From Actinocatenispora rupis (lineage in GTDB: Bacteria; Actinomycetota; Actinomycetes; Mycobacteriales; Micromonosporaceae): a stretch of 64,000 nucleotides of DNA. The notes under the pieces were generated by a model, which was not told the origin of the DNA, did not search any database, and saw nothing but the letters and a program-made list of their open reading frames with translations. The stretch lies in assembly GCF_016861975.1 (NCBI RefSeq), contig NZ_BOMB01000004.1, forward strand, positions 186,001 to 250,000. The letters run 5' to 3'. Each line of letters starts with the position of its first letter. Position 1 is the first letter of the stretch. The position numbers and the translations under genes are program-made. Shown piece after piece: positions 2,804-51,342 of this stretch.

Positions 2804-2836
2804 TTTCATGACGAGTTCATCGCCGGTACCTACACT
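2804..2836 (+). promoter_or_regulatory. Activator-type promoter with 11-bp direct repeats (copy 1 of 3)
   Basis: TTCA occurs at 2805-2808 and 2816-2819, exactly 11 bp apart, the second within TTCATCGCC. The -10-like TACACT is at 2831-2836, 15 bp after the second TTCA, and the GTG start follows 8 nt after the -10, so the transcript is probably leaderless. There is no -35 box; the repeats occupy that place, as in class II activation by OmpR/PhoB-type regulators. The same layout is seen before 25427 and, on the minus strand, before 49623. Confidence 0.5.
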
Positions 2837-2844
2837 CCGCCCGC

Positions 2845-3612
2845 GTGACGGACAGTACGACGCCGGGCCCCGTCGGCAGCCCCGCGCAGCCGACGCCCCA
2901 CCGCCCCCACCCCACCGCGGCAGCGACCACGGCGCCGCCCCAACCGGCCGGTGCACCACCGCCGGGCCAGTACCAGCAGGAGCCGGTTCCGCCGCCGCGC
3001 CGGCGCATCCCGCGGTGGTGGCTGTTCGGCGGTGGCGGGGTCGTGGTGGTGATCGCCGCCGCCGTCGTCGTGGTACTCGCGGTCTCGCTCGGCGGAGTAC
3101 GGCTGCCCGCGAACGGCTGCGAGCTGATCTCCTCGTCGGCATTGGCCACGTATGCACCGGGCGCCCGGTGCGAGCGCCACGCCGGCAACTCGCAGGGCGG
3201 CGCGACGTCGCGGCTCGCCGGCTGGCAGGGCCGGTCGAGTTCGGGACGCTTCAGCCAGGTGACCGTCGACGTGGTCGCGACGGTGTTCCCCACGTCCGCC
3301 AAGGCGTCCCAGGACTTCACCGGGTTCCGCCGGATCCTGCTCGACGGCGTGGACGATCCGAACTCGCGGTTCACCACCCCGGACCACCGCGACATCAGCG
3401 GCCCCGGCGACCGCGCGTTCATCATCTACCAGGTGGACCGGAGCTTCACCGACTTCGCCGGCGGCCAGCTCATCGTCCAGTACGGGACGGCGGTGTTCCA
3501 GGTCAGCTACTTCGCCACGCTCGCCCGGCACGACGGCACCGCCATCGGGCAGAAGCAGGCCGAGGACGGCGTCATCGCCCTCGCCAACGACGTACTCGAC
3601 CAGGTGGACTGA
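2845..3612 (+). CDS. Membrane-anchored extracellular protein, DUF3558-like
   Basis: A 255-residue protein in three parts: a Pro/Ala/Thr-rich cytoplasmic segment (about 1-52), a positively charged stop (RRRIPRWW), one transmembrane helix (about 58-83), and an extracellular domain of about 170 residues. The domain has two cysteines near its start (NGCELI and GARCER), a spacing common in actinobacterial DUF3558-like lipoproteins and membrane proteins. No catalytic motif is visible. The GTG start is supported by the leaderless promoter just upstream and by the proline-rich N-terminus. The function is unknown. Confidence 0.75.
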   Translation: MTDSTTPGPVGSPAQPTPHRPHPTAAATTAPPQPAGAPPPGQYQQEPVPPPRRRIPRWWLFGGGGVVVVIAAAVVVVLAVSLGGVRLPANGCELISSSALATYAPGARCERHAGNSQGGATSRLAGWQGRSSSGRFSQVTVDVVATVFPTSAKASQDFTGFRRILLDGVDDPNSRFTTPDHRDISGPGDRAFIIYQVDRSFTDFAGGQLIVQYGTAVFQVSYFATLARHDGTAIGQKQAEDGVIALANDVLDQVD

Positions 3613-3791: not shown

Positions 3792-4667
3792 TCAGGGGTG
3801 GCCGATGGTGATCGGGTGCCCGAAGTGCGACAGCAGGGTCACCGTCGGGGACGCGTGGTGGATCGGATCGGTCGGGGCCTGCCACGACCAGATCTGCTCC
3901 ACGTAGCCGGACGAGACGCGCACCCAGGTCTGCGTGGTGTCGTAGCTGCCGTCACCGACGACCGGCCGGGTGCTCGTCACCTGGTAGACGTCGTACGCGA
4001 TGCCGTCCTTGTCCCGGCGACCGACGTACCTGACGGGCCCCTCCTTCTTCATGTCGTCGAGGATCCCGCTCATCGTCGCGGTGTCCGCACCGCACAGGAA
4101 CGCGTCGCGCCCGCCCGCCGCCTTCACCTCGGCCGGACTCATCCGCTGCCAGCCGTGCGGGTCGGCCGTACCGGCCGGTGCCCGCGTGTAGAAGTCGTCG
4201 CCGAACACCGCGTTCATCGGGCCCGAGTACCGGTCACCCTCGTGGATGCCCATCCAGCCGGTGCGGGTCTTCGGATCCCAGCTGCCATCGCAGTAGTTGT
4301 CCTTCACACGCCAGTCCGACCACTGCGCGACGCGGAAGCTCGCCTCGGCGGTCTTGTCGAACGCCGCGACGAGCCGCATCGGCGGCCCGGTCGGCGTGGC
4401 GCGGTGCGGTGCGGGCGAGGTGGTGGCGTGCATGGTCGGCGACTCCGCGACGACGGCCGTCCCCCGGTCGCCGGCCCCGGCCGTCAGACCGAGCGCGGCA
4501 CCGACGAGGGCGAGCACGCCAACCCCGGCCAGTACGGACCGGCCGATGGCACGGTTGCGGACGGTACGGCGACCGGAGCGCACCAGCTCGTCGAGTGGTG
4601 GCGTACCCGTCGGTGCGCTGGCGAGTCGGCGCATCGCGGCGGACAGCTTCTCGTGGTCGGTGTTCAT
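3792..4667 (-). CDS. Membrane protein paired with an ECF sigma factor (CU044_5270-like)
   Basis: A 291-residue protein: cytoplasmic N-terminus (about 1-40, MNTDHEKLSAAMRRLASA), one transmembrane helix (about 45-65), a Ser/Thr/Pro linker, then an extracellular domain of about 200 residues with two widely spaced cysteines (DNYCDGSW, FLCGAD). Its ATG overlaps the sigma factor's stop by 4 nt (ATGA), so translation is coupled. In SigE-type pairs the downstream membrane protein often acts as an anti-sigma or sensor, and its short basic N-terminus could contact the sigma factor. No zinc-binding ZAS motif is present, so an anti-sigma role is inferred only from position. Confidence 0.75.
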   Translation of the reverse strand: MNTDHEKLSAAMRRLASAPTGTPPLDELVRSGRRTVRNRAIGRSVLAGVGVLALVGAALGLTAGAGDRGTAVVAESPTMHATTSPAPHRATPTGPPMRLVAAFDKTAEASFRVAQWSDWRVKDNYCDGSWDPKTRTGWMGIHEGDRYSGPMNAVFGDDFYTRAPAGTADPHGWQRMSPAEVKAAGGRDAFLCGADTATMSGILDDMKKEGPVRYVGRRDKDGIAYDVYQVTSTRPVVGDGSYDTTQTWVRVSSGYVEQIWSWQAPTDPIHHASPTVTLLSHFGHPITIGHP

Positions 4668-5173
4668 CGGACTCCTTGGCTGTCGGTGGCCAGCAGGCCA
4701 CGGAGCCGGTGCAACGCGCGGGAGTTCTGCGTCTTGACGGCGCCGACCGAACACCCGAGGACCGCGGCGACCTCGCGTTCGGGCAGATCGGCGTAGTAAC
4801 GCAGCACCATGACCGCCCGTTGCCGGCGCGGAAGGGCGAGCAGCGCCCGGCGCAGCTCGTCGTCGTGATGGGACACCGGCGACGGGCCGATCCGCTCGGC
4901 GGGCTCGGCGACCAGGCTCTCCCGGCGTCGCCGACGCCACCAGCTCACGTTCCCGTTGACCAGCATCCGTCGCAGGTACGCGTCCGGGCTCCCCCTGCGG
5001 GAGACCGCCCGCCACCGTGCGTACAGCCTGACCAGGCAGTCCTGCAACAACTCCTCGGCCCGGTGCGGGTCACCCGTCAACAGCCTGGCGACCCGCAGGT
5101 ACCCCTCCCAGCTCCGGGAGACGAAGTCCGCGTACGACTCGTCGGCCGAGCTCCGTTCGTTGTCGTCGGTCAC
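4664..5173 (-). CDS. SigE-family ECF RNA polymerase sigma factor
   Basis: A 169-residue sigma factor with region 2 (about 10-80, ADFVSRSWEGYLRVARLLTGD and HRAEELLQDCLVRLY) and region 4 (about 105-160, LPRRQRAVMVLRYYADLPEREVA and GCSVGAVKTQNSRALHRLR). The region 2 signature and short length match the actinobacterial SigE family of ECF sigma factors. It is the first gene of a two-gene operon with the membrane protein downstream. A CAACC-N17-CGTGG sequence upstream fits an autoregulated ECF promoter, and the GTG start lies close enough to it for a very short or absent leader. Confidence 0.92.
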   Translation of the reverse strand: MTDDNERSSADESYADFVSRSWEGYLRVARLLTGDPHRAEELLQDCLVRLYARWRAVSRRGSPDAYLRRMLVNGNVSWWRRRRRESLVAEPAERIGPSPVSHHDDELRRALLALPRRQRAVMVLRYYADLPEREVAAVLGCSVGAVKTQNSRALHRLRGLLATDSQGVR

Positions 5174-25337: not shown

Positions 25338-25377
25338 TCCCCGATTTCAAGGGGATTTCATCGCCCACCGCTAGCGT
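25338..25377 (+). promoter_or_regulatory. Activator-type promoter with 11-bp direct repeats (copy 2 of 3)
   Basis: TTCA at 25346-25349 and 25357-25360 are 11 bp apart, the second within TTCATCGCC, as in copy 1. The -10-like TAGCGT is at 25372-25377, again 15 bp after the second TTCA. A TCCCC/GGGGA hairpin (25338-25342/25351-25355) overlaps and may end the SWIM transcript. The acylase ATG follows 49 nt after the -10, with a GGGGAGG site. Confidence 0.5.
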
Positions 25378-25426: not shown

Positions 25427-27886
25427 ATGGCGCGCAGACACAGGCCGCGGAGGCAGGTACTGGCGGCCGCGGTGGCGGTCGTCGTCGCGACCGCGACGCT
25501 GACGACGGCGGCGACGGCGCGGCCGGACACCGCGCAGGGGCCGGACAAACCCACGATCCGGTACACCGAGTACGGCATCCCGCACATCATCGCGTCGACC
25601 TTCGAGGGCCTCGGCGAGGGCTACGGGTACGCGGCGGCCAAGGACAACATCTGCACCCTGGCCAGCACGTACCTGATGGTCGAAGCGCGGCGCTCGAAGT
25701 ACCTGGGGCCGGACGGGCACGCGGACACCGGCACCTCGGGTGGCACCACCAACCTCAACAGCGACCTGTACTTCCAGCGCATGAACGACGACCACGTCGT
25801 CGAGAAGCTCGTCGCCAAGCCCGCTCCCGACGGCCCCGAACCCGAGGTACGGCAGGCGATCCACGGCTACGTCGAGGGATACAACCGGTACCTGGCGGAG
25901 ACCGGGGTCGGCAACATCACCGACCCGGCCTGCCGCGGCGCCGCGTGGGTGCAGCCGATCACCGACCTCGACGTGTACCGGCACGTGCACGCCGAGGTCA
26001 TCATGGGCACCTCGCAGTACCTGCTGGACGGGGAGGTCGGCGCGGCACCCGCGGCCGTACCGGCGGATTCGCCGAAGGCACGGCCGGCCGCCGACACGGG
26101 CCGGAAGATCGTGCAGGCCATGGCAAAGGGCCACCAGAACGGCATCGGCAGCAACGCGCTGGCCGTCGGCGCGGACGGTGTCTCCGGCGGCGGCAGCATG
26201 CTGCTCGGCAACCCCCACTTCCCCTGGCAGGGCAAGAACCGGATGTGGGAGACGCAGCTGACCATCCCGGGGAAGTTCAACGTCGCCGGGGCGAGCCTGC
26301 TCGGGTTCCCGGTGGTCAACATCGGGCACAACGACGACGTGGCGTGGAGCCACACGGTCGCCACGGTGGCCCCGTTCGGGCTGTTCGACCTGCAGGTGGA
26401 TCCGTTGCACCCCACCAGATACCTGGTGGACGGGACGTGGCGGGACATGACCTCGCAGCGGGTCAGCGTCGAGGTCCGCAACGCCGACGGCTCGACGGGC
26501 ACCGTCACCAGAACCCTCTGGTCCACCCGGTACGGGCCGGTCACCACGTCGCTCGCCGGCGTGCCGCTGCCCTGGGTCGTCAGCGCGCACGCGGTACGCG
26601 ACGCGAACATGGACAACCTGCGCGCGGTGAACACGTGGTTCGGGCTGGACCGGGCGAAGGACACCGACGACGTCGTACACACCCTGGAAAGTACGCAGGG
26701 CAGCCCGTTCTTCAACACGCTCGCCACGGACCGCAAGGGCCACGCCCTCTACGCCGACATCCAGGCGGCGCCGAACATCACCGACGCGCACGCCGAGTCC
26801 TGCCTGACGCTGACCGGCCGGGCGACGTTCTACGGGCTGCGGATGCCAGGCGTACCACCGGTTTCCATCCTGGACGGCAAGCGCAGCGCCTGCGACTGGC
26901 CGGACGATCCGAACGCGGTGGCGCCCGGCCTGCTCGACCCGAAGGTGCAGCCGCGGTTGATCCGGACCGACTTCGTCGGCAATGCCAACGACAGCCCGTG
27001 GCTGGCCAACCCGGCCGAACCCCTGTCGTACCCGCGGGTCATGGGCGACACGGACAGCACCCGCACGACCCGCACCCAGCAGCTGATCCTCACCGCGCAG
27101 CACCGCATCGACGGTACGGACGGCTTGCCGGGCAAGGGATTCACGCCCGAGACGATGCGCGAGTCGCTGTTCGCCGACCGCAGCCGTACGGCGGACCTGG
27201 CCCGCGCGGCGACCGTACGGATGTGCAAGGGCTTCGTCGGCGGGCTCGCCCCGTCCAACGGGGGTCTGGTCGACGTGCACGACGCCTGCCCGGTGCTCGC
27301 CGCCTGGGACGGTACCTTCACGCTGCACAGCCGCGGCGCGTGGCTGTTCGAGAACTTCTGGAACAGCCTGCCCGTACCGGATGTCGGGGTGGCGGGTGTC
27401 GAGACCGCGCCGTGGAAGGTGGGGTTCGATCCCAAGGAACCGCTGACCACACCGAACACGCTGGACACCGACCGGCTCGACGTGAAGCTGGCGTTCGGCA
27501 ACGCGGTCGCCGCCCTCCGCAAGGCCGGAATCCCGCTAGACGCAACGGTGTCGGACGTCCAGACCGTCACCCGCAACGGCGAGCGCATCCCGATCCACGG
27601 CTCGCTGGGCAGCCTCGGCGTCCTCAACGTCATCGACCCGGCCGCGGACGCGCAGGGAAACCCGGACGTCGTCTGGGGATCCAGCTTCATCCAGGAGGTA
27701 CGGTTCGGCGCCGACGGGCCGCCGCAGTCGTCCACGCTGCTCACGTACTCCCAGTCCGCCGACCCGACGTCACCGCACTACGCCGACCAGACGACGCTGT
27801 TCTCCGCCGGGAAGTGGGTGACCGACCGGTACACCGAGGACCAGATCGCCGCCTCCCCCGTACTGGAGACCAAGGTCCTCGACTGA
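25427..27886 (+). CDS. Secreted penicillin acylase-family Ntn hydrolase
   Basis: An 819-residue exported enzyme. A basic signal peptide (about 1-32, ending TAATA) precedes the alpha chain; autocatalytic cleavage is expected before Ser242 in GIGSNALAVG, the beta-chain nucleophile. LLGNPHFPW follows, and the region GFPVVNIGHNDDVAWSHT holds the oxyanion residues usual in the family. The size and sequence resemble aculeacin A acylase and N-acyl-homoserine-lactone acylases of actinomycetes. It would cleave amide-linked acyl chains outside the cell, for example lipopeptides or signals. A repeat-type promoter precedes it. The specific substrate is not predictable. Confidence 0.93.
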   Translation: MARRHRPRRQVLAAAVAVVVATATLTTAATARPDTAQGPDKPTIRYTEYGIPHIIASTFEGLGEGYGYAAAKDNICTLASTYLMVEARRSKYLGPDGHADTGTSGGTTNLNSDLYFQRMNDDHVVEKLVAKPAPDGPEPEVRQAIHGYVEGYNRYLAETGVGNITDPACRGAAWVQPITDLDVYRHVHAEVIMGTSQYLLDGEVGAAPAAVPADSPKARPAADTGRKIVQAMAKGHQNGIGSNALAVGADGVSGGGSMLLGNPHFPWQGKNRMWETQLTIPGKFNVAGASLLGFPVVNIGHNDDVAWSHTVATVAPFGLFDLQVDPLHPTRYLVDGTWRDMTSQRVSVEVRNADGSTGTVTRTLWSTRYGPVTTSLAGVPLPWVVSAHAVRDANMDNLRAVNTWFGLDRAKDTDDVVHTLESTQGSPFFNTLATDRKGHALYADIQAAPNITDAHAESCLTLTGRATFYGLRMPGVPPVSILDGKRSACDWPDDPNAVAPGLLDPKVQPRLIRTDFVGNANDSPWLANPAEPLSYPRVMGDTDSTRTTRTQQLILTAQHRIDGTDGLPGKGFTPETMRESLFADRSRTADLARAATVRMCKGFVGGLAPSNGGLVDVHDACPVLAAWDGTFTLHSRGAWLFENFWNSLPVPDVGVAGVETAPWKVGFDPKEPLTTPNTLDTDRLDVKLAFGNAVAALRKAGIPLDATVSDVQTVTRNGERIPIHGSLGSLGVLNVIDPAADAQGNPDVVWGSSFIQEVRFGADGPPQSSTLLTYSQSADPTSPHYADQTTLFSAGKWVTDRYTEDQIAASPVLETKVLD

Positions 27887-35082: not shown

Positions 35083-35199
35083 CAGAGCCCGACATGGCAG
35101 TACGGATGCTGGATGGTGGCGATGGCGCTGGCGTCGGGTACGCAGGGGCGGACGCGGCCCCGGAACGCGCCGTCCCCGTCAGGACGGTCGGGGTTGCGG

Positions 35200-35694
35200 G
35201 TGGCGCAGACGTTCGAGGAGTTCTACGCGGCGCACTACCAGGCGGTCGCCGTCCAGATCTACGTGGCGTTCGGGGACCGGGCCGAGGCGCAGGACATCGC
35301 GCAGGAGGCGTTCCTCCGGGCGCTGAGCCGCCGGGACCGGCTGGTCGCGGGCGGCGATCCGGTGGCCTGGGTACGCCGGGTGGCGTGGAACCTGGCGATC
35401 AGCCGGTGGCGCCGGCTGCGTACGGCGTTCACGTTCCTGCGCCGGCAGCGGGACGAGCACGTGCCCGAGCCGAGCCCGGATCACGTGGCGCTGTCCGGCG
35501 CGCTGGCCACGTTGCCGGAACAGCAGCGGCGCGCGGTCGTCCTGCACTACCTGGCCGATCTGAGCGTCGCCGACATCGCCCGGCAGGAGGGCGTCGCCGA
35601 GGGCACCGTCAAGTCGTGGCTGCACCGGAGCCGCAAGGCCCTGGCGCTGCTGCTGCGCGACGAGGCCGTCGAGGGGGAGGTGCGTGATGCCTGA
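35200..35694 (+). CDS. ECF/SigE-family RNA polymerase sigma factor
   Basis: About 164 residues. Region 2 (about 3-70) reads FEEFYAAHYQAVAVQIYVAFGD with AQDIAQEAFLRAL and PVAWVRRVAWNLAISRWRR. Region 4 (about 100-155) reads LATLPEQQRRAVVLHYLADLS with EGVAEGTVKSWLHRSRKAL. It is coupled to a membrane protein whose start overlaps its stop by 8 nt, the same arrangement as 4664-5173/3792-4667. GTG 35200 begins right before the conserved domain; ATG 35113 would add 29 residues of atypical composition. Confidence 0.9.
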   Translation: MAQTFEEFYAAHYQAVAVQIYVAFGDRAEAQDIAQEAFLRALSRRDRLVAGGDPVAWVRRVAWNLAISRWRRLRTAFTFLRRQRDEHVPEPSPDHVALSGALATLPEQQRRAVVLHYLADLSVADIARQEGVAEGTVKSWLHRSRKALALLLRDEAVEGEVRDA

Positions 35695-48216: not shown

Positions 48217-49623
48217 TCAGAACGCGCCCAGGCCGTGCGGTACGCCGACGCCGGTCGGGCCGTCCCAGCCCGGGCCCGCCACGCACAGCGCGGTCGCCAG
48301 CTTCGCCTTCGTACAGTCGGCTGCGCCGTTGGGCATGCTGGTGCCCGTGGTCACGTCCTCGATCGAACCGCTGCCGGCCGCGTACACCGTGTTGGGTCCG
48401 TCCACGCCGCTGGTGCCGGCGCGGGCGTACAGACCGGCCAGGTACGGCGCCGACGCGCTGGTGCCGAGGGCGACGCCCCAGCCGCCGGCGCCACCGGACG
48501 CCGGCAGGTACGTGTCGTAGATCGACAGGTTGACCGCGGCGGCCGACACGTCGGAGCTGGCGCGGTGACCGCCGCAGTGCGCGGCCACGCTCTTGGGCTG
48601 CCCGTTCGCCGGGGCGATGTAGTCGGAGCAGGCACTCGATGCCGACCAGTACGCGCCGTCGTTGAGTGCGCTTCCGGTGTCCCACACCGACTTCGTGAAC
48701 GTCTTGCCGCCGTCGTTCGAGGCGAGCTGGACGCCCCCGGCCGACGTCACCCACGGCACTTCCTGCGGCCACACCTGGTGTGCGGTACCGGTCTGGATGC
48801 CGTGGTCACCGGCCGAGGCGACGATCGCCACGCCGGGGTGGTGCAGGCGCTTCGCCAGCGTTCCGGTGGCGATACCCGGCTGCACGCCGTTGCCGACGAC
48901 GTAGCTGAGCGACACCGAGTTGGCGCCCAGCCCGATCGCGGTGTCCACCGCGTCGTCCATCGCCTTGGCCGTCGCGGCCGGCAGATACGCGTACTGCGGA
49001 ATCACCAGCAGCGGCGAGATCTCCACGACGCGGATCTTGCACCGCGGGCAGGCCGCCGAGGCCATGTCCACGTCGAGGGTCGACTCACCGGCAAGCCCCT
49101 CGTCCGCCTTGTTGAGCAGCGGCAGGCCGATCGGCGCGGGCGGCTTCCCGCCGTGCTGACCGACGATCTTCAGGCAACCGCTCGCCTCGGTGCACGCCGG
49201 CAGACCATAAGCCTCCCGGTACTTGGCGAGGTCGGCGGCCAGCGTCGGAGTCGCACCGAACGCGATGATCCCGATCGTGCCGGCCTTCCCGGGGCTGTCC
49301 GGCAGGTGGAACGCGCGGGCGAGGTCCGCCGGCCCCAACCCGACCGGCCCCTTCGACTCCAACGGCTTCGACGCGTCCGACGACGCCGCCACCATCGACA
49401 CGCCACACCCGGTCGGCAGGTACTTGTTGCCGCTCTTCTCCGGGCACAGCTTGATCGTGCGGTGGGTACGCGTCAGGCTCCCGTCCAGCGCCGCCTGCCG
49501 TACCGCGGCCGGACTGTCCGGTGTGGACACCGACGCCGGGCGCGCCGACGCACCGCCCGGCATCAGTACCCCGACCGCGGCCACCGCGGTCGCCGCAACC
49601 ATGGTTTTCACGACACGCCGCAT
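48217..49623 (-). CDS. Secreted S53-family (sedolisin-like) serine peptidase
   Basis: A 468-residue exported protein. The signal peptide (about 1-28) ends GASARP. The catalytic set of sedolisins is visible with family spacing: Glu180 and Asp184 in GESTLDVDM, oxyanion Asp273 in ASAGDHG, and Ser389 in LGTSASAP. A full ~180-residue pro-domain is missing; only about 80 residues precede the core, so activation may differ from kumamolisin. Several cysteine pairs suggest disulfides. The ATG follows GGAGGAG. The promoter upstream carries the 11-bp TTCATCGG repeats. Confidence 0.88.
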   Translation of the reverse strand: MRRVVKTMVAATAVAAVGVLMPGGASARPASVSTPDSPAAVRQAALDGSLTRTHRTIKLCPEKSGNKYLPTGCGVSMVAASSDASKPLESKGPVGLGPADLARAFHLPDSPGKAGTIGIIAFGATPTLAADLAKYREAYGLPACTEASGCLKIVGQHGGKPPAPIGLPLLNKADEGLAGESTLDVDMASAACPRCKIRVVEISPLLVIPQYAYLPAATAKAMDDAVDTAIGLGANSVSLSYVVGNGVQPGIATGTLAKRLHHPGVAIVASAGDHGIQTGTAHQVWPQEVPWVTSAGGVQLASNDGGKTFTKSVWDTGSALNDGAYWSASSACSDYIAPANGQPKSVAAHCGGHRASSDVSAAAVNLSIYDTYLPASGGAGGWGVALGTSASAPYLAGLYARAGTSGVDGPNTVYAAGSGSIEDVTTGTSMPNGAADCTKAKLATALCVAGPGWDGPTGVGVPHGLGAF

Positions 49624-49664: not shown

Positions 49665-49696
49665 ATCCTCACGGCACCCGATGAAGCCCCGATGAA
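49665..49696 (-). promoter_or_regulatory. Activator-type promoter with 11-bp direct repeats (copy 3 of 3)
   Basis: On the minus strand TTCATCGGG occurs twice with starts 11 bp apart (TTCA at 49693-49696 and 49682-49685). A GAGGAT -10-like box (49665-49670) begins 15 bp after the second TTCA start, the same spacing as at 2816/2831 and 25357/25372. The S53 ATG follows about 40 nt downstream with GGAGGAG. Confidence 0.5.
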
Positions 49697-50017: not shown

Positions 50018-50974
50018 CTAGTCGTGCAGTACGCGTGGGCAGACGTGGAAGACGAGTGTCTCGACGGCGGGCATGAGTGCCAGCCCGAGCGGTGCGAGGA
50101 CCGCCGCGACGACGAGGAGTGCCGCGATGACCGGTGGCATGGCGGTGGCCGGCTCACGCCGTTGGATCAACCGGCGGAACCGGCGTTCGACGGCAACCGC
50201 CGACGCGGCCAGTACCGAGGGGTCCGTGTGGTCAGGTCCGGCCAGGGCGAGCAGCGCGCTCGCGACGGCGAGCGAGCCGTGCGTGTGCGCGGCGGCGTCG
50301 TCTGCCGCCATCTCGACCAGCGCCGGAACCTCGCTCTTCGCGGCCGCAAACAGCGGAACGAACGGGAACGCCCGGCACAACAGTCCCACCGCACCGATCA
50401 GTGGCGCGTGGTGCTGGCGCAGGTGGGCGCGTTCGTGGCTCAGGGCCGCGGCGAGTTCCTTGTCGTCGAGCGTGGCGAGGGCGGAGGAGGTCACCACGAT
50501 CCGGCTCGGATGCCCGGCGACGCAGTACACGACGGGCCGGTCGTCGCACAGGACGTGCACGCCGAGTCGAGCATCGTGACGTGCCAGCAGTCGGATGCCT
50601 TGCAGGTGGCGTCGACGGTGCCGGCGTCCGGACCGCAGTTGCCGCGCAGCGGTGACGTTGAGCCGCAGCACGATGGCGGCGCACACGAGCGTTCCCAGGA
50701 CGCTGCCCGCCAGGCCCGCCGGTGTCGCGTACGGCGCGAACGCGTGCTCGCACACCGAGAGGGTTCGCGCGACGGTGTCGCGTACCGGATCCCACGGCAG
50801 CAGCAGCGTCACCGCGCCCAGCGACGCGGCGACGACGACGGACGCCGACAGCCCCAGCCAGGCGGCAACCCCGAACACCGGTACGACCCTGAGCGCCGGT
50901 GTGCGATTCAGGACGAGACCACCGAACGTTCCCGCGGCGGCGGCGTACGCCAGCAGCAGGATCGACGCGGTCAT
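50018..50974 (-). CDS. M56/BlaR1-type membrane zinc metallopeptidase
   Basis: A 318-residue membrane protein with about four transmembrane helices (about 1-20, 32-58, 85-105, 275-300). The zinc peptidase domain lies between them with HExxH in LSHERAHLRQHH (about 185-196) and a downstream Glu in VEMAADDAAA. There is no C-terminal penicillin-binding sensor, unlike staphylococcal BlaR1, so the signal is unknown. It overlaps blaI by 4 nt (ATGA) and would inactivate the BlaI-like repressor upon signal. Confidence 0.9.
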   Translation of the reverse strand: MTASILLLAYAAAAGTFGGLVLNRTPALRVVPVFGVAAWLGLSASVVVAASLGAVTLLLPWDPVRDTVARTLSVCEHAFAPYATPAGLAGSVLGTLVCAAIVLRLNVTAARQLRSGRRHRRRHLQGIRLLARHDARLGVHVLCDDRPVVYCVAGHPSRIVVTSSALATLDDKELAAALSHERAHLRQHHAPLIGAVGLLCRAFPFVPLFAAAKSEVPALVEMAADDAAAHTHGSLAVASALLALAGPDHTDPSVLAASAVAVERRFRRLIQRREPATAMPPVIAALLVVAAVLAPLGLALMPAVETLVFHVCPRVLHD

Positions 50975-51342
50975 CGGCGGCCGGCGCGGCGCTGTGCCGC
51001 GGCCAGGGCGCGGCGCATCTCGGCGAGTTGCCCCGGATCGATCCGGTCGACGAAGTGCAGCAGTGTCGCGGCCTGGTCGCTGCTTCCCGACAGGACATCA
51101 GCCATCAGGTCCGCGTGGTACTCCTCGCGGCTCGTGACCGGCTGGTACCGGTAGGCGCGCCCGTCGCGTTCCCGTCGCACCATTCCCTTACCGTGCAGGT
51201 GGTCCAGGACGGTCATGACGGTCGTGTAGGCGACCGGCCGGTCTCGTTCCAGCACCTCGCGGACGTCGCGCACCGTCGCCGAGTCGGAGCCGTCCCACAG
51301 CACGTTCATGACCACCGACTCCAGCTCGCCGAGCCGACGCAT
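50971..51342 (-). CDS. BlaI/MecI-type transcriptional repressor
   Basis: A 123-residue winged-helix repressor of the penicillinase-repressor family: LGELESVVMNVLWDGSDSATV, VAYTTVMTVLDHLHGKGMVRRERDG and RAYRYQPV, then a helical dimer domain with DQAATLLHFVDRID. It is the first gene of the blaI-blaR1 pair. A CTACGTAG-centred dyad of the BlaI type lies 121 bp upstream, on the promoter of the divergent NlpC/P60 gene. Confidence 0.93.
   Translation of the reverse strand: MRRLGELESVVMNVLWDGSDSATVRDVREVLERDRPVAYTTVMTVLDHLHGKGMVRRERDGRAYRYQPVTSREEYHADLMADVLSGSSDQAATLLHFVDRIDPGQLAEMRRALAAAQRRAGRR

Follow-up and report, generated by a model that had tools for sequence, protein, structure and literature searches.

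A SARP-like repeat promoter before exported-protein genes of Actinocatenispora rupis and its likely hybrid LuxR-HTH/SARP activator

SARPs have been studied as switches of antibiotic gene clusters. According to PMC10936776, SARP promoters contain direct repeats at distances of 11 or 22 bp, and the 3' repeat is located 8 bp from the -10 element. The same paper describes the afsS promoter, which combines a suboptimal -10 with a -35-like TTCAGC at positions -38 to -33; AfsR contacts T-38 and T-27, and its R92 is in contact with both. According to PMC7040171 and PMC10972967, small SARPs are associated with heptamer repeats separated by a 4-bp spacer, which for several SARPs are 8 bp upstream of the -10. 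The Streptomyces PhoP boxes are also direct repeats of 11 bp, with the consensus GTTCACC (PMC4415409).

The window, that is, the whole 64-kb stretch analysed here, corresponds to C4:186001-250000, where C4 is a 308-kb contig of the 7.83-Mb A. rupis genome. A sequence-only reading of the window described, before three genes, two TTCA-containing repeats 11 bp apart and a -10-like box beginning 15 bp after the second TTCA. This geometry was found at all three sites with the same coordinates (Table 1), and the second repeat is TTCATCG in each of them, as had been claimed. Thus, the repeat spacing of 11 bp is observed at 3/3 sites, and the gap between the 3' repeat and the -10 is 8 bp at these sites and at a fourth site on contig C29; these are the distances given for SARP promoters. 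In site 3, both half-sites are the exact TTCATCG heptamer, and in sites 1 and 2 only the second repeat is. The GAGGAT of site 3 is a weak -10 with one mismatch to TANNNT. The first repeat begins 26 nt ahead of the -10 in the window sites, at the place of the -35. The sites had been described as devoid of a -35 box, which holds for sites 2 and 3 (at most 2/6 matches to TTGACA with spacers of 16-18 bp) and only partly for site 1, where the best match is 4/6 (ATGACG, spacer 17). A transcript from site 1 would have no leader or almost none.

Table 1. Promoter elements and genes of the three window sites and the candidate regulator gene
Feature	Coordinates	Strand	Sequence and remarks
Site 1 box	2805..2822	+	TTCATGACGAGTTCATCG; TTCATGA-CGAG-TTCATCG; TTCA at 2805 and 2816
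Site 1 -10-like hexamer	2831..2836	+	TACACT; 8 bp past the box
255-aa protein	2845..3612	+	GTG start at 2845; Pro-rich N-terminus; one membrane segment (by eye)
Site 2 box	25346..25363	+	TTCAAGGGGATTTCATCG; TTCAAGG-GGAT-TTCATCG; TTCA at 25346 and 25357
Site 2 -10 hexamer	25372..25377	+	TAGCGT; 8 bp past the box
Acylase	25427..27886	+	ATG at 25427; penicillin amidase family (PF01804), PvdQ-like, secreted
Site 3 box	49679..49696	-	TTCATCGGGGCTTCATCG; TTCATCG-GGGC-TTCATCG; TTCA at 49696 and 49685
Site 3 -10-like hexamer	49665..49670	-	GAGGAT; 8 bp past the box; weak
Secreted protease-like protein	48217..49623	-	ATG at 49623
LuxR-HTH/SARP hybrid regulator	C29:107849-108904	-	Near the fourth site (C29:111357)

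When comparing these sites with the described systems, the afs box recognized by AfsR (afsS, Streptomyces coelicolor) is similar in its 11-bp TTCA-core repeats at -38 and -27, the lack of a good -35, and the weak -10. If the -10 is counted as -12 to -7, the window TTCA elements lie at -38 and -27, exactly as in afsS. The window sites differ from the afs box in the heptamer, which is of the TCATCG type, and in the apparent targets, which are exported proteins. The small SARPs (ActII-ORF4, RedD, PapR2) share with the window the heptamer repeats with a 4-bp spacer; however, as described, they consist of the DNA-binding and BTAD domains only and activate antibiotic clusters, and the PapR2 motif is GTCAGSS. 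The Streptomyces PHO boxes are likewise TTCA-core 11-bp direct repeats read by the same winged-helix fold; their GTTCACC consensus is kept as GTTCAC in the PHO boxes of the A. rupis genome, whereas the window repeats are of the TTCATCG type and not of the GTTCACC type.

The acylase scores 559 bits with the NCBIfam PvdQ model, under its cut-off of 950. It is absent from the three congeners (3/3 same-genus genomes examined), and the identity is at most 44% in the sampled relatives versus 63-73% to proteins of Streptomyces, Kutzneria, and Amycolatopsis. Probably, the acylase gene was acquired horizontally along with its own promoter. The protein starting at 2845 has no Pfam or NCBIfam family, and only weak relatives (30-34%), none with the box, were found. 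The site 3 product is protease-like; its putative S53 label is that of the sequence-only reading, where it was based on motifs, and no Pfam, NCBIfam, or PDB match was obtained. It represents a multi-copy protease family with nine matches in the genome and 12-18 in the three congeners. None of its relatives exceeds 50% identity, and the one that reaches this value (L139) comes from an organism of another taxonomic family and has no box upstream. Directly upstream of this gene, on the minus strand (50018-51342), a Penicillinase repressor (PF03965) and an M56/M48-type membrane peptidase are encoded, in a BlaI-BlaR1-like arrangement. Additionally, two ECF-type sigma factor genes are present in the window, at 4664-5173 (-) and 35113-35694 (+).

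The pattern TTCAN7TTCA was picked after inspecting the window, where it is found at the three sites only; in 60 dinucleotide shuffles of the window its mean number was 0.17 and its maximum was 2, and TTCAN7TTCATCG was found in none of the 60. Of the C4 strand positions, 4.4% lie 20-110 nt 5' of a start called on the same strand. Three of the five candidate sites fall within 46.9 kb, for which simulation gave P ~0.001, in a window itself noticed through these sites. Gene calls outside the annotated records were made with a codon-bias script trained on C4 and are approximate.

The search for acylase orthologues gave 62 loci; we kept the 48 close ones (63-73% identity) and excluded the remaining 14, which are distant (21-38%). 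The latter belong to Streptomyces, Kitasatospora, Kutzneria, Amycolatopsis, Solihabitans, and Herbihabitans. The box and the -10 are present upstream of the acylase gene in 46/48 close loci, with at most two mismatches to the seed KYCATCG-NGAT-TTCATCG, 8 bp, TANNNT, which was composed after viewing 20 loci; no box was found upstream of the acylase gene in L327 and L363. The information content of the acylase promoters is 1.53 bits per position from the box to the -10 versus 0.58 in the flanks, and some positions just 3' of the -10 are also conserved. In the 32 tabulated promoters, which are those of the 48 matching a stricter pattern, the first T, the A, and the final T of the -10 are invariant, and TANNNT stands at the same spacing. 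The box of site 2 is thus conserved before the acylase gene across genera.

An independent matrix was built from 46 foreign acylase promoters (44 distinct), none of them from the A. rupis genome. Over the 308-kb C4 contig, the longer matrix ranked site 2 (32.2), site 1 (17.5), and site 3 (12.0) at the top, the next score being 5.8. The core matrix, which covers the 18-bp box and the -10 only, gave 37.0 for site 2, 23.1 for site 3, and 22.5 for site 1, followed by 17.7 inside a gene, and the reversed control reached at most 9.1. Elsewhere in the genome, two stretches reach unexplained moderate scores: 18.0 on the core matrix at the start of a C21 coding region and 10.1 on the longer matrix within C57:1-5000.

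The sequence-only reading had suggested a genome-wide search for the repeats followed by a -10, with a test of the downstream genes for signal peptides. TTCAN7TTCATCG occurs five times in the 7.83-Mb genome versus zero for the reversed pattern. Both exact-repeat matches outside the window touch coding sequence: C4:281491 was ruled out as a promoter because it falls within a coding region, and C21:132937, considered as a conserved operator, was rejected since it overlaps here the start of a minus-strand gene. The latter match recurs in G001 and G003, and in G019 with a different base. The search for the box with the -10, allowing two mismatches, gave six matches versus two for the reversed control. 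The sole non-window match with at most one mismatch was C29:111357. Its box starts 75 nt upstream of the probable ATG of a gene for a secreted serine hydrolase (PF00144) and overlaps the end of the preceding gene. Thus, a fourth exported enzyme turned up without being sought. With the longer matrix, this site is at the top of 40 kb (29.8; next, 2.9), and its core score is 39.2. A looser pattern without TCG, allowing one mismatch, gave seven genome matches versus three in the control; it adds C57:37709, which precedes the gene of a 187-aa membrane-type protein and has a core score of 21.8, and two sites that are not immediately followed by an exported gene. The exact box with the -10 was found at five places in 354 genomes: two here, and the others before a SARP gene, before a lipoprotein gene, and in a coding region. 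For the 353 other family genomes, these three places compare with one for the reversed control.

A hybrid regulator is encoded near the C29 site. According to Pfam, it contains GerE, Trans_reg_C, and BTAD domains. For the C29 protein, GerE scores 22.9 bits, just below the Pfam cut-off of 23.5, and in the three orthologues tested (L328, L391, and L393) it is above the cut-off (30.5, 34.0, and 32.1, respectively). No NCBIfam family was assigned to the protein at its cut-off; AfsR is the best PDB match. Like AfsR, the C29 regulator combines the OmpR-type DNA-binding domain with BTAD; unlike AfsR, it carries a GerE HTH at the N-terminus and no NOD or TPR part. In our own mapping, two recognition-helix residues of AfsR are changed in the C29 regulator (T88 to V and S91 to Y), and R92 is kept. 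The small SARPs are defined by an OmpR-type DNA-binding domain and BTAD only; the extra N-terminal GerE domain therefore makes the C29 regulator a variant architecture in comparison with them.

Orthologues of the C29 regulator (~350 aa, 57-63% identity, full or near-full length) were revealed in 22/48 acylase loci, in flanks of at most 3 kb, and none was seen in the fetched flanks of 26/48. The regulator search matched other SARP loci with 34-45% identity in the SARP part only and other SARPs of the A. rupis genome with at most 37%, again in the SARP part. In the C29 regulator, the sequence of the recognition helix is NVVQVYVYRLRK, and in the 22 orthologues it is NV[VI]PV[YH][VI]YRLR[KR], so that YRLR[KR] is kept in the C29 regulator and in 22/22 orthologues. 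The regulator gene is linked to the box at the C29 site and in those 22 acylase loci, and the three window sites are on a different contig. In S. violascens and S. xanthochromogenes, for example, the genes for acylase, cutinase, esterase, and regulator lie next to one another. The matrix scan revealed no box upstream of the regulator gene or of the neighbouring cutinase-family gene (C29:105824-107716), which is convergent to it. A large SARP at C4:147197 was also considered as a local regulator and set aside, its 41-kb linkage being the sole point in its favour.

Besides the acylase promoter, 37 further boxes with a matrix score above 10 were found in 30/48 loci, two of them overlapping each other. 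A downstream gene was called for 33/37, and for 26/33 of these genes a crude hydrophobicity rule predicts an exported-type N-terminus; the same rule flags 89/298 genes of C4. As the 48 loci are related, the further boxes represent a handful of gene families. Pfam searches with example genes behind these boxes revealed cutinase, esterase, DUF4185, and FG-GAP proteins. A search by the regulator gave 20 plasmid records (18 of Streptomyces and 2 of Streptantibioticus), several of which are near-identical. In all three plasmid regions fetched out of the 20, the top box precedes an exported protein gene adjoining the regulator gene. In the two Streptomyces regions, which closely resemble each other, the product of this gene is a cutinase family protein; in Streptantibioticus cattleyicolor, it is a secreted-type protein of 288 aa that has no Pfam match. 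One plasmid region also contains two weaker boxes (14.9 and 12.9) without an exported gene close behind. In L347 (8382/8396) and L349 (8263/8270), two boxes lie near each other on opposite strands, which suggests divergent promoters of one type.

The TTCAN7TTCATCG geometry was also examined beyond this genome, in a sample of 139 matches (5 from this genome and 134 from the family) drawn among the matches listed, with some recurrent family places left out; many family matches are orthologous, and the counts are therefore not independent. By our own gene caller, 103/139 matches are intergenic and 36 are coding. In 19/103 of the intergenic ones, NANNNT begins at offset 15, counted from the second TTCA, compared with eight at offset 14, nine at offset 16, and a mean of 3.3 elsewhere. 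It is also raised at offsets 21, 26, 35, and 37 (7-9 each), a series that goes beyond multiples of 11 from 15. TANNNT was counted five times at offset 15, five at 16, three at 26, and five at 37, with 0-2 at the others. Without the sites of this genome, offset 15 accounts for 16/99. No offset-15 peak was observed in the small control sets of 36 coding, 21 other-spacing (12 intergenic), and 25 in-frame matches. The peak indicates that this geometry represents a genuine type of promoter. In a hand tally of spacings among the matches listed, N7 was found 16 times (5 in this genome), N4 four, N6 two, N9 two, and N10 12 times (several orthologous), while codon frame inflates N5 and N8. The family-wide enrichment of the 11-bp spacing is therefore modest.

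These family promoters are relevant to the proposal that the sites are PHO boxes through which PhoP, the regulator named first in the sequence-only reading, activates all three genes under phosphate starvation. The genome does encode a PhoP/RegX3-type regulator, a sensor kinase, and PhoU, and PHO boxes are likewise repeats of 11 bp (PMC4415409). A gene lies within 180 nt of 49 intergenic matches, and NANNNT occurs at 14-16, 26, or 37 in 31 of them. Fourteen of these 31 precede genes whose products Pfam assigns to phosphate-scavenging enzymes (two phytases, six purple acid phosphatases, one phosphoesterase, and five PhoX), and one phytase promoter has GAGGAT at offset 15, like site 3. The phosphatase-type boxes are those of L121, L123, L230, L261, L269, L272, L277, L290, L303, L242, L247, L250, L252, and L255; they may well be PHO boxes that tolerate TTCATCG in the family, and they form the chief argument for PhoP. 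On the longer matrix, one purple acid phosphatase promoter and one phosphoesterase promoter with TTCATCG reach 14.9 and 15.3. Because these two outscore site 3, the matrix alone cannot separate sites 1 and 3 from PhoP targets. However, the genome's own PHO boxes are of the GTTCAC type and rank low on the matrix that places the window sites at the top. The box before pstS is GTTCACTGCTCGTTCACC (G000:C38:142436, L018; the solute-binding protein was confirmed by Pfam), and that between the kinase gene and phoU is at L388 2843-2875, on the minus strand. The core scores are at most 4.0 in the pstS-box region and at most 6.0 in the phoU-kinase region, versus 22-37 for the window sites. A triple GTTCA repeat at G000:C57:14413 (L020), near a DUF47/PhoU-like-looking gene, was taken as an ordinary PHO box; its stretch scores 8.2. 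No known phosphate gene is among the three products, and the acylase orthologues revealed a different, better conserved box adjoining a SARP gene in 22/48 loci, for which reason PhoP was dropped as the first-choice regulator. Control of all three genes by PhoP is thus improbable.

The other possibility mentioned in the sequence-only reading, a previously undescribed regulon for exported enzymes, is the one favoured by the evidence. Site 2 and the C29 site very probably belong to the regulon of the C29 GerE-SARP. For sites 1 and 3, which are weaker matches and for whose genes no box-bearing orthologue was found, membership of the same regulon is probable but with less assurance. The core scores form two groups, 37-39 and 22-23, other SARP genes of the family carry TTCATCG repeats upstream, and the genome contains 18 BTAD and 41 Trans_reg_C matches, all of which would fit a mixed arrangement with site 1 or 3 under another OmpR-type regulator or SARP. 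Nevertheless, sites 1 and 3 are still within the top three of 308 kb, and the half-sites of site 3 are both exact, which makes such an arrangement rather doubtful. Chance resemblance of at least sites 1 and 3, arising from one window, would agree with the post hoc choice of the pattern and with the rarity of the exact box and -10 in the 353 other family genomes. It is opposed by the shuffles, by the independent matrix, by the positions just 5' of gene starts, and by the fourth site, which was found by scanning and stands before a secreted enzyme gene; coincidence is therefore very improbable. On the whole, we consider it likely that the three sites serve as operator-promoters in a single exported-protein regulon under the C29 SARP-type GerE hybrid activator.

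The idea of activation by an OmpR/PhoB-type winged-helix protein through repeats in place of the -35 is well supported, SARPs having the same fold and geometry. Since the window repeats occupy the afsS positions, we propose that a GerE-SARP dimer replaces the -35. The C29 activator would bind two 7-bp half-sites (~KYCATCG-NGAT-TTCATCG) one helical turn apart, as a side-by-side dimer over the place of the absent -35, and the 3' half-site would end 8 bp before the TANNNT-like -10. The bound dimer would hold sigma region 4 and, in the manner of AfsR, recruit the housekeeping sigma factor. The sequences themselves show the architecture, its conservation before the acylase gene in other genera, its occurrence at further exported genes close to the regulator, the repeated linkage of regulator and box, and the conserved recognition helix. 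Binding of the C29 regulator to these boxes, activation of transcription by this binding, and the membership of sites 1 and 3 in the regulon of site 2 are inferred.

The PvdQ-like acylase is of a kind able to break down quorum-sensing signals or acyl antibiotics. Taken more broadly, the data incline us to a widespread GerE-SARP regulon of Streptomyces and other actinomycetes that controls exported proteins and not antibiotic synthesis. Its targets would include the PvdQ-type acylase, cutinase, esterase, protease, a beta-lactamase-fold serine hydrolase, and wall- or surface-acting proteins. The box, the targets, and the regulator would have moved between actinomycete families, and lineage-specific exported genes would have been recruited here. 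Possibly, the regulon amounts to a concerted exoenzyme programme for offence or for the destruction of signals. The hybrid regulator, its own half-site, and the exported targets would be new, whereas the SARP mode of action is already known; no description of a GerE-SARP exoenzyme regulon was found among the matches listed from the open-licence literature. If this reading is true, the SARP family reaches into ecology outside biosynthesis, a readable 32-nt code becomes available for finding targets in actinomycete genomes, and a test of a single regulator becomes possible.

As for the SARP-type genes of the family, L135, L204, L208, and L211 have 11-bp TTCA repeats ending in TTCATCG ~150 bp upstream, and in L171 and L280 such repeats are 20-31 bp upstream; BTAD was confirmed for L135, L171, and L280. 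Possibly, these repeats reflect autoregulation.
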